DNA of 38,026 bases from Cytophagaceae bacterium (lineage in GTDB: Bacteria > Bacteroidota > Bacteroidia > Cytophagales > Spirosomataceae), in NCBI GenBank assembly GCA_026785975.1, contig JAJAZB010000454.1:1-38026 (forward strand), in the 5' to 3' direction. Position 1 is the first letter of the stretch. Each line of letters opens with the position of its first letter. The position numbers and the translations under genes were made by a program. Under the pieces are notes generated by a model. It made no database searches and was not told the DNA's origin. It saw nothing but the letters and a program-made list of their open reading frames with translations. Positions 20,429 to 32,347 of this stretch are shown in pieces.

Positions 20429-21409
20429 ATGCTTCGCCGAATTCGCCGCGCCATCCAGGACTATTTCGGCTTCAACCCCACCGAAACCAGGGCTTTCCTG
20501 CTCCTCATGCTGGTGGTCGTAGTGGCGTTGCTGTTGCCGTTTGCGTTCGACTACTGGCCTTCGTCCCTCCCCGATACGACCAAAGCCGACCAGCAAAAAC
20601 TCGATAGCCTCGTGGCCGGACTGCAAATCCGACAAAAAGAAGCCCGCCCAAATCGCTACGCCCGCCGGGGTGCTGACCGCGACAGCGAGCCGGAAGCCGA
20701 TGCGCCGCCTGCGCGGTTGTTTGCGTTCGATCCCAACCAAATTTCTGCCCAACAGTGGCAACAACTCGGTCTGCCGCGCTGGCTGGGGGAGCGCATCGTG
20801 AAGTACCGAACCAAAGGGGGGCAGTTTCGTAAAAAAGAGGATTTGAAGAAAATATACGACTTCCCGGCGGAGACCTACGAGCGATTGGAGCCGTACATTC
20901 AACTACCGGGTACAACAACGTCGGTTGGAAAGTTCAACGAATCCGATGTTACGGCCCCGACCATCGAGTTACCCAAACCCGCTCCCTCGGAACCGAAATT
21001 CGCCGCCAAAGTCCCCTTCACCTTCGACCTCAACGCCGGTGACACGACCGAATTCAAGCGCATTTACGGCATCGGTTCCAAGCTGTCCGTGCGCATCATC
21101 AAGTACCGGGAAAGTTTGGGTGGTTTTTACGCCGAAAATCAGATTCGGGACGTTTGGGGCCTCGACTCGTCGGTGGTCGACGAGTTGTTCAAACACGCCA
21201 CTTTACGCAGCCCGCAGGTGCGCAAATTGAACGTTAACGCCGCCAGCCTGGAGCAGTTGAAGCACCCCTACCTCAAACCCTACGTGGCCAAAGCGATCAT
21301 CGCCTACCGCCAGCAGCACGGCCCGTATGGGTCGGCCACCGAGTTGAGTAATGTAAAAGTCCTGGATGGAAAGACGTTGGAAAAGCTGACGCCGTATCTT
21401 GAATTTTAA
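20429..21409 (+). CDS. helix-hairpin-helix (ComEA-like) DNA-binding protein
   Basis: N-terminal TM; three HhH-like repeats (LPRWLGERIVKYRTKGGQFRKKEDLKKIYDF; IYGIGSKLSVRIIKYRESLGGFYAENQIRDVWGL; LKPYVAKAIIAYRQQHGPYGSATELSNV). Start taken as ATG 20429. Confidence 0.82.
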   Translation: MLRRIRRAIQDYFGFNPTETRAFLLLMLVVVVALLLPFAFDYWPSSLPDTTKADQQKLDSLVAGLQIRQKEARPNRYARRGADRDSEPEADAPPARLFAFDPNQISAQQWQQLGLPRWLGERIVKYRTKGGQFRKKEDLKKIYDFPAETYERLEPYIQLPGTTTSVGKFNESDVTAPTIELPKPAPSEPKFAAKVPFTFDLNAGDTTEFKRIYGIGSKLSVRIIKYRESLGGFYAENQIRDVWGLDSSVVDELFKHATLRSPQVRKLNVNAASLEQLKHPYLKPYVAKAIIAYRQQHGPYGSATELSNVKVLDGKTLEKLTPYLEF

Positions 21410-21450
21410 GACCGTTTCCTGGAATTAAAGTCCACGCTGGTAGTTCGCGC

Positions 21451-21864
21451 CTACTTATCGGAGAGGAAATTTGTAATTGTCAGGATAATAGTCTCGCCGC
21501 ATTTTTGTAGGTTGAGCAAATCTTTATCGCCCGTGATCAGATGAGTAGCCCTTCCATCAATAGCGAGTGATAAAAGGAAATTATCTTTTGGGTCCCGACA
21601 AGTAGTAATTTCGCTGGTAACCATCACAAAATCAGCGCGTAGGCTAAGTTGCTGCAACAAATCCTGGAGGTCAGTAAGCGAAAAATACTTTTTGAACTTT
21701 GGTCACCTGGCAACCTCTAAAAATTCATCGGGAAGTTCCTGGCTAAAGAGCAAGATGAGAGCGTCGTCTGCAAGTATCTTGTCAAGTCTGGAAAAGTCTT
21801 TTGTCAGCAGAAAGCTAATCCAAAGGTTAGTGTCGATGATAACTCTATCCTTTGTTTCTGGCAT
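21451..21864 (-). pseudogene. PIN-domain toxin interrupted by an in-frame TGA (21705-21703)
   Basis: MPETKDRVIIDTNLWISFLLTKDFSRLDKILADDALILLFSQELPDEFLEVAR*PKFKKYFSLTDLQDLLQQLSLRADFVMVTSEITTCRDPKDNFLLSLAIDGRATHLITGDKDLLNLQKCGETIILTITNFLSDK, same frame on both sides of the stop. Confidence 0.85.
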
Positions 21865-22069
21865 ATCGTTTTACTCTTACTAATTCCACTTCTTTCGTGA
21901 TGTCTTCTGAAGATGGCAGATTCGTTGCCGCTTTTGTACGCAGTTTTGAAACGAATTTCAAGAAGCTATCTTCTGGAGTTTGTCTGATCGCTATCAACTC
22001 AAGATCAGCAAGGTCTTGCAAAAGTTTGCTGGCTTTAGGGTTCAATATATCCACTTGATACGTCGTCAT
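21845..22069 (-). CDS. putative antitoxin of a PIN-type toxin-antitoxin pair
   Basis: 74-aa ORF immediately upstream of and overlapping the PIN toxin start by 20 nt; N-terminus typical of small PIN-partner antitoxins. Confidence 0.72.
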   Translation of the reverse strand: MTTYQVDILNPKASKLLQDLADLELIAIRQTPEDSFLKFVSKLRTKAATNLPSSEDITKEVELVRVKRYARNKG

Positions 22070-22073
22070 AGTT

Positions 22074-22103
22074 CAAATATAGAAAATTCAAGCCGCGTTG
22101 CAA
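22074..22103 (-). promoter_or_regulatory. promoter of the toxin-antitoxin locus (TTG-N19-TATATTTG)
   Basis: minus strand TTG at 22103-22101 and TATATTTG at 22081-22074. Confidence 0.6.
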
Positions 22104-22174
22104 TGTCGCTTAATAAACGCACCAGCAAAGTAATTACGAGCTTACCTTTGTTGTCAGAGCAATCGGGCACCCGT

Positions 22175-23074
22175 TCAAAAATTCGGCTTGAGCAGGTATT
22201 TCGAGTAAAAGTCGTTGATAGCTTTGACCGCTTCGTCGGCGGTATCCACGATGCTGACCAGGTTGAGGTCGCCGGGGTTAATGTTGTGTTCCTCGTGGAG
22301 CATCGTCGTTTCCAGCCAGGCAAATAAGCCCGCCCAGAAGGATCGGCCAACCAACACAATGGGGAATCGCGCGATTTTACCCGTCTGAATTAAGGTTATG
22401 GCTTCAAACAATTCATCGAGGGTACCAAAACCGCCCGGCAACACGATGAAGCCCTGCGCATACTTGACGAACATGACTTTTCGCACGAAGAAAAAGTCAA
22501 AATTGATGCTCTTGTCATAGTCGATGTATTCGTTGGGATACTGCTCATGGGGAAGTTTGATGTTGAGGCCCACGGACTTACCCTTCTGCGCCTGCGCCCC
22601 CTTGTTGGCCGCTTCCATGATGCCCGGTCCGCCCCCGGTGATGACGCCGTAGCCATACTCGACGAGTTCGGCGGCGATTTCTTCCGCGATTTTGTAGTAT
22701 TTATTATCCGCTGTTGTCCGCGCCGAACCGAAAATCGAGACACAGGGGCCAATCTTGGCAAGGCGGTCGAAGCCTTCCACAAATTCGGCCATGACTTTGA
22801 AAACGACCCACGAATCGTTGCTTTTAATTTCGTTCCAGTTGCGGTCCTGAAAGGCCTCCCTGATTTTAGCTTCATCCGCCGGAACCGCCGGGTTCATCAG
22901 CGAAACGTCGGTCAGTATATTTTCGGGTAGACCTTCCTGATTGTATTGGGGTAGCTTGGGGTTTTGATTCGTAGCCGCGCTGTCTATTCTAGGCAATCCG
23001 TTGGTAATTACTTGATTAGAATCCATACTTGCTGTACTTATTTTAAAATTCAGGACGAGTGAAAAGTAACTCAC
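22175..23074 (-). CDS. LOG family / TIGR00730 Rossmann-fold protein
   Basis: PGGFGTLDE and GGGPGIMEAANKGA motifs; likely true start near 23026 (MDSNQVITNG). Confidence 0.9.
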   Translation of the reverse strand: MSYFSLVLNFKISTASMDSNQVITNGLPRIDSAATNQNPKLPQYNQEGLPENILTDVSLMNPAVPADEAKIREAFQDRNWNEIKSNDSWVVFKVMAEFVEGFDRLAKIGPCVSIFGSARTTADNKYYKIAEEIAAELVEYGYGVITGGGPGIMEAANKGAQAQKGKSVGLNIKLPHEQYPNEYIDYDKSINFDFFFVRKVMFVKYAQGFIVLPGGFGTLDELFEAITLIQTGKIARFPIVLVGRSFWAGLFAWLETTMLHEEHNINPGDLNLVSIVDTADEAVKAINDFYSKYLLKPNF

Positions 23075-27045: not shown

Positions 27046-27124
27046 TTGGTTATGAAATTTGCCGGTCCGGTATCTTTAAATGAGATAAGATTTCGTTTAT
27101 CGAAACGTGTGGCCTTTTCCCACT

Positions 27125-29935
27125 ATGAAAAACACCTACTGCTTGTTCCATAAAATTCTGGTGTTGAGCTTGCTGGTACTAACTACCCGCGTACAGGCTC
27201 AGGTATCGCCAACGTCTCCGCCCCCGCAGCCCAATATTCCGGTGTTGGTCGATTCCGCCGAACGCGCGAAATCGCTACGCCCGATTATCGAAGAAGTGGC
27301 CCCCGCTCCGGCACCCGTCAACCCCTCGGCGGCTTCCCGAAAGGTGCCCGTCTGGGCCGCTAAAAAAGCCCGGTACAACGCCGCCCGGCCCCGCCTCCAC
27401 GATCTATTGCACACCCGTCTGGACTTGCGGCCCGACTGGCAAAAACAGCATCTGCACGGTACGGCTACGCTGACGTTGCGCCCCCATTTTTATCCGCAAA
27501 ACACCCTTGAACTGGATGCCAAAGGAATGACGATTCAGTCTGTGATGCGCCTGGACACGCTACCCGCCGCCGCCGAATTACGCGCCCGACTCCAGGTCCG
27601 CGATTCCCTCCTGGCCCGTTTGCAGACCGATACGACCGGCCTGTTACGCCGCGATTCAGTGCTGGCGGCTACGTTGCTGGCCCGGAGCCGGAGCCGGCGG
27701 GATACGCTGCTCACACCGGACGGCATCATCGTGGCCACTGATTCGCTGACGTTTCGATACAATGCCAAAACCCTGACGGTTGAACTGGGCAAATCCTTTA
27801 CCCGCCAGCAACGCTACACCCTGCGCATCGGGTACGTGGCGAAGCCCAATGATCTGCCGGTTGGCGGCAGTGAAGCCATCAAAAGCGACCGGGGTTTGTA
27901 TTTCATCAACCCGCTCGGGGCCGATACCACCAAGCCGCGCCAACTCTGGACTCAGGGCGAAACCGAAGCCAACTCGGTCTGGTTTCCAACCCTCGACGCG
28001 CCCAACGTCAAGATGACGCAGGACATCTTTCTGACCGTTGAAGCCCGATTGAAGACCCTTTCAAACGGTACGTTGATCGACTCCGTTTTCAACCCCGACA
28101 GCAGCCGCACCGACCACTGGCGACAGACGCAACCCCACGCCCCGTACCTGACGATGATCGCCGTGGGCAACTACGCCATCATCACCGATTCCACGGTCAA
28201 TAAAGTGCCCATCAGTTACTACGTTGAACCCGCGTACGCGCCCTACGCGAAGGCGATTTTTGGCCGGACGCCGGAAATGATGCGGTTTTTTAACGAGAAA
28301 TTCGGCCTTGATTATCCCTGGGACAAGTACGCGCAGATCGTGGTGCGCGATTACGTGAGCGGGGCGATGGAAAACACGACGGCGACCGTTCACGGGGAAT
28401 CGGTGCAAAAAACGCCCAAACAACTCGTGGATGGGAACGCCGACGGCACCATCGCCCACGAACTTTCGCACCACTGGTTTGGCGATTACGTCACGGGTGA
28501 ATCCTGGGCAAATTTACCCCTCAACGAGTCGTTTGCTACCTACGCCGAGTACCTCTGGGCCGAACACAAGCACGGCAAAGACGCCGCCGACTACGAAGCC
28601 CAGTCCCAACTCAACGAATATTTGGCCGAAAGTGAACAAAAGCAGGAACCGCTGGTGCGCTTCAACTACTCCGACCAGGAGCAAATGTTTGATGCGCACT
28701 CCTACCAAAAAGGTGCCCGGGTGTTGCATCAGTTGCGTAAACTCACGGGTGACGACGCATTTTTCGCCGCCCTCAACCTCTACCTGAAACGTCACGCCTT
28801 CGGTACCGCCGAGATTCACGACCTGCGTCTGGCGGTTGAAGAAATTACTGGTCAGGACTGGAATTGGTTTTTCAACCAGTGGTTTTTTCAACCGGGCCAT
28901 CCCGAAATTAGGGTGGAGCAGAATTTCGACGTGGGCCGGTTTACGGTCACCCTCACGCAGACTCAGGATACGCTCTACACGCCCATTTTCCGGCTACCCA
29001 CCACCCTCGACGTGTGGGTTTTGGGCAAACGCACTACCTACGACATCACGCTCGACAAGCCCCGTCAGGTACTCGAATTTCCGCTCTCGCGCCGGCCGGA
29101 CCTGGTGGTGCTCGACGCCGAACGCGTGATCCCGGGGACCATCGAACACACCAAACCCTTGAAAGACTGGGTGTTTCAGTACCGGAACGCTGAGCATTAC
29201 GCCTCGCGCTACGAGGCCATAACCCGCCTGGAAAACAACATGACCGACTCAGTGGCCCGCTCGATCATGATGCTGGCGCTGACCGATAAATTCTGGAAAA
29301 TCCGGCAGGTTGCGGCGGGTAATCTGACCGACTACGACGGGCCACAGTTTGTGGAAATTGAGTTGATGTTGCAAAAACTCATTAAATCCGACCCTGCGCC
29401 CATGGTGCGCTCGGAAGCATTGATTGCCCTTTCCTCGTTCAACGACGACGAAAACGTGCCCCTCTACCGCCAGGCTTTACAGGATACCTCCGATTTGGTG
29501 GCCTCTCAGGCACTCGAAGCCTACCTGATCACGAGGCCCGAAGACGCGGGCAGCATCGCGATCCGGTTCGAAAATTCCGACAATCCGGAGGTCGTCGTGG
29601 CGGTGGGCAACTACCTCGCCAATCAGGGCGAAGCCGCCCGCTACGACTGGTTTCAAAAGCAGGTGGAGCGGCTGAATGCGAGCGGCGTTTATCAGTTTTT
29701 ACCCGTGTTTGGCAAGTACCTCGTCAAGTCGACCGACGTGGTGAAGCGGCGCAGTATTCCTGTTCTGGAGCGCATTGCCCGCAACAACCCGACGTATTTT
29801 GTGCGATTGGCCGCCTACCAGGTCTTGGGTCTGCTCACCGACGTGGAAAGCGTCAAGGGCCTCCGCCGCGACATCAAAGCCAACGAAAAAGACCCCAAGC
29901 TGGCGGATCTGTACAAGCAGATGATTGAGTTTTGA
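27125..29935 (+). CDS. exported M1 family (gluzincin) metallopeptidase with C-terminal HEAT-like repeats
   Basis: signal peptide; GAMENTTATV; HELSHHWFGDYVTGESWANLPLNESFATYAEYLW. Confidence 0.93.
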   Translation: MKNTYCLFHKILVLSLLVLTTRVQAQVSPTSPPPQPNIPVLVDSAERAKSLRPIIEEVAPAPAPVNPSAASRKVPVWAAKKARYNAARPRLHDLLHTRLDLRPDWQKQHLHGTATLTLRPHFYPQNTLELDAKGMTIQSVMRLDTLPAAAELRARLQVRDSLLARLQTDTTGLLRRDSVLAATLLARSRSRRDTLLTPDGIIVATDSLTFRYNAKTLTVELGKSFTRQQRYTLRIGYVAKPNDLPVGGSEAIKSDRGLYFINPLGADTTKPRQLWTQGETEANSVWFPTLDAPNVKMTQDIFLTVEARLKTLSNGTLIDSVFNPDSSRTDHWRQTQPHAPYLTMIAVGNYAIITDSTVNKVPISYYVEPAYAPYAKAIFGRTPEMMRFFNEKFGLDYPWDKYAQIVVRDYVSGAMENTTATVHGESVQKTPKQLVDGNADGTIAHELSHHWFGDYVTGESWANLPLNESFATYAEYLWAEHKHGKDAADYEAQSQLNEYLAESEQKQEPLVRFNYSDQEQMFDAHSYQKGARVLHQLRKLTGDDAFFAALNLYLKRHAFGTAEIHDLRLAVEEITGQDWNWFFNQWFFQPGHPEIRVEQNFDVGRFTVTLTQTQDTLYTPIFRLPTTLDVWVLGKRTTYDITLDKPRQVLEFPLSRRPDLVVLDAERVIPGTIEHTKPLKDWVFQYRNAEHYASRYEAITRLENNMTDSVARSIMMLALTDKFWKIRQVAAGNLTDYDGPQFVEIELMLQKLIKSDPAPMVRSEALIALSSFNDDENVPLYRQALQDTSDLVASQALEAYLITRPEDAGSIAIRFENSDNPEVVVAVGNYLANQGEAARYDWFQKQVERLNASGVYQFLPVFGKYLVKSTDVVKRRSIPVLERIARNNPTYFVRLAAYQVLGLLTDVESVKGLRRDIKANEKDPKLADLYKQMIEF

Positions 29936-29937
29936 AG

Positions 29938-30450
29938 CTACTCAAAGGTTTGTTCATTGTCGTCGTAAAGGATCACACCCAGGATAGCGAATCGCAACAC
30001 CGCAGCCGCATCCTGGCTGGCCAATTTGGGGCGAGGGCTTAACCTGCCAACGCACAAATGGGCTTCTACACTTTTTTCGCTGAAATCGATTTTAGTTTGA
30101 AACCACTGGATGGTTTCCAGAAGCTGTTCTTTAGCCCGTTGACGATGTTTAGCGCGTTGTTGAGGGCGATTCGTTTCTTTAATTTCTACAAAGCAAAAAG
30201 TTACCTCATCGAAAAGGGCAAAGTCGCAACGTTGCGGGTCTGAACTTGAAGCGAGACAATGGTCTATTGCGAGAAAATGGATTTGCTTAGCAGAGGGATT
30301 CAGAACCTTGAAATGGGCGGTTTCATCTGGGCTTGTTGAGACAAAGCATTTTTTGTTTCCCAGCGGATCAATCACGCCAAAACAGGTATCATTATGCGTC
30401 TCCAGGCACGGAAAGGCTACAGGAAAAGCCTCCTCAATTAACCTCTTCAT
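29938..30450 (-). CDS. putative PD-(D/E)XK-superfamily nuclease, second gene of ATPase cassette
   Basis: RCDFALFDEVTFCFVEIKETN (D-x(n)-ExK) followed by helix RAKEQLLETIQWF; start overlaps the ATPase 3' end by 17 nt. Confidence 0.65.
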   Translation of the reverse strand: MKRLIEEAFPVAFPCLETHNDTCFGVIDPLGNKKCFVSTSPDETAHFKVLNPSAKQIHFLAIDHCLASSSDPQRCDFALFDEVTFCFVEIKETNRPQQRAKHRQRAKEQLLETIQWFQTKIDFSEKSVEAHLCVGRLSPRPKLASQDAAAVLRFAILGVILYDDNEQTFE

Positions 30451-31513
30451 TTACTTTAGATTTGCTACGATAAATCTTCATCAACAAATCGAGATCGCCT
30501 GCATTATCTTCCGAAACTCCATCCAATTCATTGTCGCTAATTAACATCGTTTCAGGGTCAGTAATCGAGCGAACCGTTCCATCGGCTACGTAGTACGCCG
30601 CGAATTCTTCAGGGTTCAGCCAGCTTTCTCTGGGCACGATGGCAGCAATATCGGCTTCGCGTTCGGGGTGTTTCTGCCAGACGCTATAAGCCAAAAGTAG
30701 CATATTTAGTGAAGTGAGCACGTAGGGGCTGTGCGTGGTCATCAGCAACTTATTTTGATTTTGTGTGCAGCGGTCAGCAAGGTAATAGATAAGACGTTTT
30801 TGGGTTGTAGGATAAAGATTCAACTCAGGTTCTTCAATAGTGAATAAAGTGGCCTGCTGAGTTTTATACCGAACTAATTCGCTCTCTACTACCATTTGTA
30901 AAGGGATTAATGCTTGGTGACCACTTGAAGTCGCTGATAAACTAATTTCCTGACCATTTTCCAATCTTATCATTGATTTTCGTTCAGTGCCACGAAAGTA
31001 TTGCACATTCAGTAAAGTATCAAATTGCGGGAAAATCTCTGTAGCGAATTCAAATCTTGAACCAAAAACGGTTAGAGTTTTTGGTAAAAAAATTCTGCTC
31101 GACATGAGGCCGTAAAGAGAATTTGATATACTCGAAATAAAAACTCTTTCAGCGGGAATATACAAATCTTCCCGAGCAGTAAATTTTTCAGAATTTTCAG
31201 AATTTTCAATTACGTCAATACCGAAAGAAATGTCGTATGAAAATTGTGTGGCTCCAGTTAAAAAATTCAGTATTGTTTCTTCTTTTAAATAGTCTAACAA
31301 GCCATAATCATGAAATTCTATTCCAATGCTGGGGCGATTATTAGGGGACTGTTTACTGATTTGATCGTACTCATTATTAACAAACACTGCCACCAACTTC
31401 GCCAGCGTACTCTTCCCGCTCCCCTGCGGCCCGATCAGCACGGTAGTTTTCTTCAACTCCAACTCGGCATCCCGAATTGGGCCAAAATTTTTGACGATGA
31501 GTTTCTCGTTCAT
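30434..31513 (-). CDS. AAA ATPase (SMC/ABC/OLD-like, AAA_15/AAA_21-type)
   Basis: Walker A GPQGSGKST; signature-like LSATSSGHQALIPL; Walker B LFTIEEPELNLYP; H-loop LLMTTHSPYVL. Start ATG 31513 (MNEKLIVKNFGPI). Confidence 0.88.
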   Translation of the reverse strand: MNEKLIVKNFGPIRDAELELKKTTVLIGPQGSGKSTLAKLVAVFVNNEYDQISKQSPNNRPSIGIEFHDYGLLDYLKEETILNFLTGATQFSYDISFGIDVIENSENSEKFTAREDLYIPAERVFISSISNSLYGLMSSRIFLPKTLTVFGSRFEFATEIFPQFDTLLNVQYFRGTERKSMIRLENGQEISLSATSSGHQALIPLQMVVESELVRYKTQQATLFTIEEPELNLYPTTQKRLIYYLADRCTQNQNKLLMTTHSPYVLTSLNMLLLAYSVWQKHPEREADIAAIVPRESWLNPEEFAAYYVADGTVRSITDPETMLISDNELDGVSEDNAGDLDLLMKIYRSKSKVNEEVN

Positions 31514-31531
31514 GGCCTTCTGCGTTTTGGG

Positions 31532-31564
31532 CAAAGCTAATGGCTACTGATTTTAAATCACAAA
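31532..31564 (-). promoter_or_regulatory. Bacteroidota-type promoter for the ATPase cassette (TTTG-N21-TAGCTTTG)
   Basis: minus strand TTTG at 31564-31561, 21-nt spacer, TAGCTTTG at 31539-31532; -33 lies inside the birA coding end. Confidence 0.7.
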
Positions 31565-32347
31565 CTCCACTTCCTTTATCCCAAAATACCGCAGGCCCCC
31601 GGTCGTTTCCAGCGCCAGGCAGCCCGTTTCGTCGACGCCGAGGAGTTGCGCGTTGAAAAGCCGTCCGTTGCTACGGTACGGATGCCATTCCTGGTACCGA
31701 AACAGCCGGGCCAGGTAGCGGGCCTTTTGCGCTTGTTGGCCCCCCTGCCGCAGCCGCAGGTACTCGGCTTCGAGGCATTCGAGCAGCCGGGCCAGGAGCC
31801 GCTCAAGGTCATAACTGAACGGCTGACCCGTGATCCGGCGCAAGGACGTGGCCTGGGGCACCGGGAAAATTAATTGGTTGATATTCAACCCAATACCCAC
31901 AATCGCCGTGCTGACCTGGTAGCCTTGCAGGGTATTTTCAATCAGTAATCCGCCCAATTTCTGATTGCCTTCGGCAGGGTGCAAGTGGTAAAGATCATTG
32001 GGCCATTTGATGCGCAACTGATTTTCGTCGAGGTGTTCGCCCAGTGCTTCGTACACCCCCAGGGCTATGGCAATACTCAGGTCGAACTGGGCCGATGCCT
32101 GTAGAAACGTGGGCTTTAGGAGTAACGAAAACGTTAGGTTTTGTCCGGGTTCCGCTTCCCAACGATTGCCCCGTTGCCCGCGTCCGGCGGTCTGCTGGTC
32201 GGTCACGACAACCGTGCCCTCAAGGGTTGAATCGCCTCCGGTTTCAGGAATCATTTTCACCAATTCATCGTTGGTCGAATGACAACTTGGCAGGAAAATG
32301 ATTTTTTTGCCAATAAATAAGGTGCTGGGCTTAAAATTGTACGGCAC
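31553..32347 (-). CDS. birA: biotin--[acetyl-CoA-carboxylase] ligase
   Basis: TDQQTAGRGQRGNRWEAEPGQNLTFSLLL; IKWPNDLY; KLGGLLIEN; VGIGLNIN. Confidence 0.95.
   Translation of the reverse strand: MPYNFKPSTLFIGKKIIFLPSCHSTNDELVKMIPETGGDSTLEGTVVVTDQQTAGRGQRGNRWEAEPGQNLTFSLLLKPTFLQASAQFDLSIAIALGVYEALGEHLDENQLRIKWPNDLYHLHPAEGNQKLGGLLIENTLQGYQVSTAIVGIGLNINQLIFPVPQATSLRRITGQPFSYDLERLLARLLECLEAEYLRLRQGGQQAQKARYLARLFRYQEWHPYRSNGRLFNAQLLGVDETGCLALETTGGLRYFGIKEVEFVI

Follow-up and report, generated by a model that had tools for sequence, protein, structure and literature searches.

A divergent PDC-M29 pair, an OLD/ABC-type ATPase with a putative PD-(D/E)XK nuclease, as a probable anti-phage module in a Cytophagaceae genome

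We analyzed a 38,026-nucleotide stretch of DNA (the window) from a Cytophagaceae bacterium (contig JAJAZB010000454.1 of assembly GCA_026785975.1). An original prediction had placed two minus-strand genes with a 17-nt overlap between an M1 peptidase gene and birA. Its coordinates and strands are correct. We refer to the upstream gene as A and to the downstream gene as B. The locus is laid out as follows:

27107-29935, plus strand: M1 peptidase gene, convergent with gene B
29936-29937: gap of 2 nt between the stop codons of these convergent genes
29938-30450, minus strand: gene B, PD-(D/E)XK-like protein of 170 aa, putative nuclease effector (ATG at 30450)
30178-30186, minus strand: E89-I90-K91 motif of B (placed by counting from the ATG at 30450)
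30434-30450, minus strand: overlap of 17 nt between the end of A and the start of B
30434-31513, minus strand: gene A, OLD/ABC-type AAA ATPase of 359 aa (likelier start, ATG at 31513)
30830-30835, minus strand: E227 and E228, the Walker B glutamates of A (placed by counting from the ATG at 31513)
31406-31432, minus strand: residues 28-36 of A, the Walker A motif GPQGSGKST (placed by counting from the ATG at 31513)
31514-31552, minus strand: gap of 39 nt between the birA stop codon and the ATG of A, on the same strand
31553-32347, minus strand: birA

The overlap points to translational coupling of A and B. Co-transcription of A with birA is possible, as the two genes share a strand and are separated by only 39 nt. 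(An alternative start for A, the TTG at 31534, would give a protein of 366 aa.) Both reading frames are open, and all of the catalytic residues discussed below are kept.

The pair stands out from its surroundings in base composition. GC content is 40.5% in A and 46.4% in B, as compared to 52.6% for the window and a mean of 52.9% (sd 3.6) for the remaining genes. Similarly, GC3 is 0.41 in A and averages 0.64 (sd 0.07) in the other genes. Bases 31141-31200, inside A, had been reported as about 35% GC and clearly below the neighboring genes; the value is exactly 35%. The base composition of both genes, along with the patchy distribution described below, supports the proposal that the pair is of foreign character. 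As a separate observation, the lowest GC content in the window (40%) is that of a small gene of 74 aa at 21845-22069 on the minus strand, which is part of a local AT-rich region (21201-22400). To the eye, its sequence resembles that of an antitoxin, and it has no match in PADLOC.

Gene A contains every motif that had been ascribed to it: a Walker A (GPQGSGKST), a signature (LSATSSGHQ), a Walker B with IEEPE, and TTHSPY at the H-loop. In an alignment of 17 homologues, G33, K34, S35, R123, S197, G198, E227, E228, and H261 are invariant. In Pfam, A best matches AAA_15 (1.2e-26) and AAA_21 (3.6e-16). In PADLOC, the best match among 134 families is PDC-M29A (1.8e-49), the second-best is AriA (4.5e-30), and PD-T4-4_A is also matched (7.4e-20). 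When we compared the profile of A to the sequences in PDB, we found structures of OLD, PtuA, AriA, and ABC ATPases. Scans with Pfam, NCBIfam, and PADLOC found no TOPRIM domain in A, including in the roughly 90 residues past the H-loop, which agrees with the prediction that A lacks a TOPRIM C-terminus. Judging from these motifs and matches, A is an OLD/ABC-type ATPase. It had been described as "SMC/OLD-like," and the OLD part of that description holds. The SMC part does not: A has only 359 aa, and its match to SMC_N scores 25 bits, below the cut-off of 40.

Gene B is not covered by any curated family in our profile scans. In PADLOC it matches PDC-M29B (6.5e-19) and, with a second B model, 1.2e-6. 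Among 23 homologues, N51, D76, E89, K91, Q109, and T113 are invariant and D63 is nearly so. The D-x(n)-EIK motif followed by a helix, as originally noted, is indeed present; the stretch after the motif is helix-like and carries QL..TI. These residues are fixed among proteins that are just 21-46% identical to B, and the conservation of the motif and of the pair is far beyond chance. The PD-(D/E)XK superfamily has an aspartate, then ExK, and then a glutamine-bearing helix. The order of D76, E89-x-K91, and Q109 in B therefore matches the layout of this superfamily.

Profile matches of the B family are weak singly and point the same way, to PD-(D/E)XK. Four members of the family match HSDR_N_2 (0.011 at best), and single members match Cas4_II (7.9e-5), PDDEXK_9 (0.0024), SfsA (0.0058), or NERD (0.021). 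Using hhalign, we aligned B to an HsdR_N_2 profile that was built from 28 small HsdR_N_2 proteins of relatives. This gave a probability of 60% over 141 columns, with D76 and the ExK motif aligned and D63 opposite a conserved glutamate of the HsdR domain. Controls with RsfS, BirA, reversed, and shuffled profiles did not exceed 0.4%. A search of PDB sequences with B returned nothing meaningful, and AlphaFold runs on two-sequence alignments gave mean pLDDT values of 39 (39.3, for B) and 44, too low for the models to inform on the fold. From the motif and the profiles, we infer that B carries a PD-(D/E)XK fold, and we are highly confident that it is a nuclease. The invariance of the motifs, the weak profile matches, and the hhalign result thus bear out the proposed pairing of an OLD-type ATPase with a PD-(D/E)XK-like effector.

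A side observation concerns another HsdR_N_2-like protein. Nearly all of the relatives that we examined encode a small stand-alone protein of this kind (L069-L098; about 150 aa, with KR(T/S)D...VECK), and it resembles a core gene.

We then asked how consistently A and B occur together, as the original prediction required. A lies directly upstream of B at all 27 of the B loci that we found. (Two of these, L002 and L028, apparently lie on the same contig, so there are 26 distinct loci.) Conversely, at 14 of 14 loci of A homologues, the gene directly downstream has an E-x-K motif, which we judged by eye in 4 of these cases. Thirteen of these 14 loci were not reached with B as the query, and some of the A scores are as low as about 107-150 bits. 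Many of the downstream partners are of the KCDYLLL...FIELKG type, and several are beyond what the B profile can detect. Most of the homologous pairs overlap, by a few nucleotides upwards, depending on the start codon that is chosen. The distance matrices of A and B are correlated across 17 taxa (r = 0.74, Mantel p = 0.0002), as expected from joint inheritance, with shared species history accounting for part of the correlation. All 17 aligned homologues of A and all 23 of B match the PDC-M29 families in PADLOC. Overall, these results support PDC-M29 as a real, obligate two-gene unit.

The distribution of the pair is patchy. Homologues of B are present in 12 of 99 relatives and in 19 of 396 genomes sampled from the phylum. 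(The two sets share a few genomes, and both include the window's own.) At all 20 loci that we measured, the GC content of the pair is below that of its flanks. Two related loci are apparently decaying copies: both L068 (9655-11399) and L004 (262-1839) have A divided between two frames, and a TAA lies inside the B match of L004.

Relatives of the pair were not found in three scans of viral contigs. With tblastn against plasmids and phages, B gave no matches and A gave a few distant ones. Microcystis phage Mic1 (MN013189.1; L104, 2986-4224) has a near full-length PDC-M29A ATPase (PADLOC, 1.8e-187). This gene has an RNA ligase gene on one side and a DNA adenine methylase gene on the other, and it lacks a recognizable B partner. 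Whether it acts as a decoy or in counter-defense is worth testing. Distant homologues of A are also present on plasmids of Bacteroides finegoldii (L105, 3356-4919) and of a Muribaculaceae member (L101). Both have short ExK-bearing partners (KCDKLIL...FVELKG); one of these pairs is inside a glycosyltransferase cluster, and the other is beside a resolvase-like gene.

What surrounds the pair differs among genomes. In the window, its neighbors are the M1 peptidase gene, birA, rsfS, and ftsH. We did not recognize a mobile element at this locus or a defense gene beside the pair; running PADLOC on eight other proteins of the window gave one weak match. In one distant genus (g121), the pair is inside a type I restriction-modification operon at 4 of 9 loci (L045, L047, L063, and L064). 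Pfam identifies HsdM, HsdS, and HsdR in L047; in L063 it identifies HsdR. (Some of these embedded copies are also accompanied by Fic, RhuM, or KilA-N genes.) At another locus from this genus (L048), a repeat array lies at a distance of about 0.4 kb from the pair. It has 37 repeats at a spacing of about 66 nt and, by its form, is a CRISPR array. In L067, the pair is about 6 kb from a similar array with 34 repeats. Elsewhere, the pair is flanked by ordinary genes. Some of these sites are stable: the pair is adjacent to lysS in three g75 genomes (L040, L041, and L043) and to accA in three members of the family, where these neighbors were named by eye from their sequences. The lysS sites suggest that the pair persisted vertically at one position for a long time.

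In the relatives that we examined, birA-rsfS-ftsH and rbfA-ABC permease-M1 peptidase are two separate conserved blocks that are not adjacent, and the pair was not seen next to either of them. Because the two blocks are not adjacent in relatives, the pair in the window lies at a synteny breakpoint. The AT-richness, the varied neighborhoods, the stable sites, and the broken copies all fit a defense module that was acquired and has partly persisted.

To interpret the pair, we turned to the nearest system that has been tested. WonAB is an operon of the Vibrio cholerae WASA-1 prophage that encodes an OLD-type ABC ATPase and a PD-(D/E)xK nuclease (PMC12137116). Defense requires both genes and is lost in mutants of the ATPase site and of K71 (PMC12137116). 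WonAB aborts infection by halting translation; rRNA or tRNA is the proposed target (PMC12137116).

The best explanation is that A and B are an acquired anti-phage module, an OLD-ABC ATPase with a PD-(D/E)XK nuclease that works much as WonAB does (probability about 0.72). The broader claim, that the pair serves in defense at all, is very probable. This explanation starts from the gene families, the intact motifs, the obligate pairing, the AT-richness, and the defense neighborhoods of some relatives. In the mechanism that we propose, A would dimerize via its ABC motifs, would bind and hydrolyze ATP, and would hold B ready in a complex. A phage-induced change would switch this complex on. The D76/E89/K91 site of B would then cut nucleic acid, most likely RNA that is needed for translation, and the infected cell would stop before phage particles form. 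We infer the complex, the activation by A, the RNA target, and the abortive outcome by analogy with WonAB. Abortive infection seems probable as the outcome, rather than direct restriction, and for RNA as the target of B we see an even chance. Two observations are less typical of a defense system. First, the fixed sites at lysS and accA are steadier than is usual for defense genes. Second, we noticed no defense gene beside the pair in the window.

The strongest alternative is direct restriction, in which A would recognize an odd structure or modification on phage DNA, B would cut that DNA, and the cell would survive. The nearest profile relatives of B are DNA nucleases (the N-terminus of HsdR, and Cas4), and the pairs embedded in type I restriction-modification operons would suit this role as well. 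However, phage DNA still replicates in the presence of WonAB, and the chromosome stays intact (PMC12137116); we consider direct restriction unlikely.

Alternatively, A and B could be a toxin-antitoxin or DNA-maintenance pair that is kept for stability or repair and has no role in defense. That some lineages keep the pair at a stable position beside lysS or accA would be in keeping with this, as would the lack of a recognizable mobile element at the locus in the window. But the pair is patchily present, is AT-rich at every locus measured, and has restriction-modification and CRISPR neighbors. Furthermore, WonB is toxic only together with active WonA, so simple sequestration was ruled out for WonAB (PMC12137116). 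A toxin-antitoxin or maintenance role looks improbable to us.

Another idea is that the pair guards restriction: it would sense anti-restriction proteins or the inactivation of HsdR and then abort the infection, in the manner of PARIS and PrrC. The embedding in type I operons in one genus is suggestive, as is AriA being the second-best PADLOC match of A. On the other hand, restriction-modification genes are not nearby at most loci, including the window, and in the host's own genome we found only two partial HSDR_N matches. A guarding role is quite improbable. Slightly more doubtful is the specific version in which PDC-M29 detects anti-restriction and aborts by RNA cleavage, with the stand-alone copies having been freed from an Hsd partner. 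If true, it would be a strategy like that of PARIS or PrrC, built on a PD-(D/E)XK RNase. Finally, a decayed or silent remnant is very improbable: two related loci do look broken, but the copy in the window has two open frames, with every catalytic residue kept.

The pair gives evidence, from the genome of an environmental, Bacteroidota-type bacterium, that a catalogued candidate is a genuine and obligate unit. It also ties PDC-M29 to the WonAB type, in which translation is the probable point of attack of the nuclease. The conserved residues (K34, R123, E228, and H261 in A; D63, D76, E89, K91, and Q109 in B) and the copies within restriction-modification operons make both the trigger and the target testable.

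How does the pair compare to known systems? According to the original prediction, the pair broadly resembles Septu, PARIS, and Gabija but has a different effector, and the domain content agrees. Septu and Gabija each combine an ABC/OLD-type ATPase with a second gene, as in the window, and A matches AriA of PARIS. Membership in any of the three is ruled out by domain content. The partner in Septu, PtuB, is an HNH protein, whereas B matches neither HNH nor PtuB. In Gabija, GajA has a C-terminal TOPRIM and GajB is a UvrD-like helicase, whereas A ends at 359 aa with no TOPRIM match and B (170 aa) has no helicase match. The effector of PARIS, AriB, is a TOPRIM nuclease (PMC12409363), and neither A nor B matches AriB or TOPRIM. 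PD-T4-4 has a similar operon and its first component matches A, but B does not match PD-T4-4_B.

The cassette does match a named system at the level of families, PDC-M29 (PADLOC-DB 2.0.0; PDC-M29A and PDC-M29B), although this name is itself a prediction. PDCs are putative candidates that were identified via guilt-by-embedding, mostly without validation (PMC12988326), and we found no experiment on the PDC-M29 family in the literature. Both genes in the window match it; they are adjacent and share its gene order. A is shorter than its model (359 aa versus 410), and the match of B spans residues 15-133 only. By these matches, the pair is a divergent member of PDC-M29.

The authors of the WonAB study place it among the "OLD-ABC ATPase + novel REase" operons, which they find in 0.96% of bacterial genomes (PMC12137116). 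As that paper presents these operons (Krishnan et al. 2020, cited in PMC12137116), all of the WonAB homologues that were detected fall within them, and the pair in the window fits their general description. Since the genes match PDC-M29 and since this type of operon was described in silico, with the WonAB subset tested (PMC12137116), the claim that the module is "uncharacterised" is not supported. It is a good example of a kind that is already catalogued and partly tested, not a new one.

Like the pair in the window, WonAB has an ATPase gene followed by a PD-(D/E)xK gene, with OLD-type ABC motifs and no TOPRIM. By published positions only, K34, E300, and H333 of WonA agree in position or spacing with K34, E228, and H261 of A, with a distance of 33 from the glutamate to the histidine in both proteins. 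(The pairing of R182 in WonA with R123 in A is guessed from their order.) The catalytic lysine is at 71 in WonB and at 91 in B, and the two probably belong to different subtypes of nuclease. Also, WonAB is carried by a prophage, while the pair in the window is chromosomal. We file the pair under PDC-M29, and its likeness to WonAB, as suggested by residue positions and gene layout, would lie in its mode of working.
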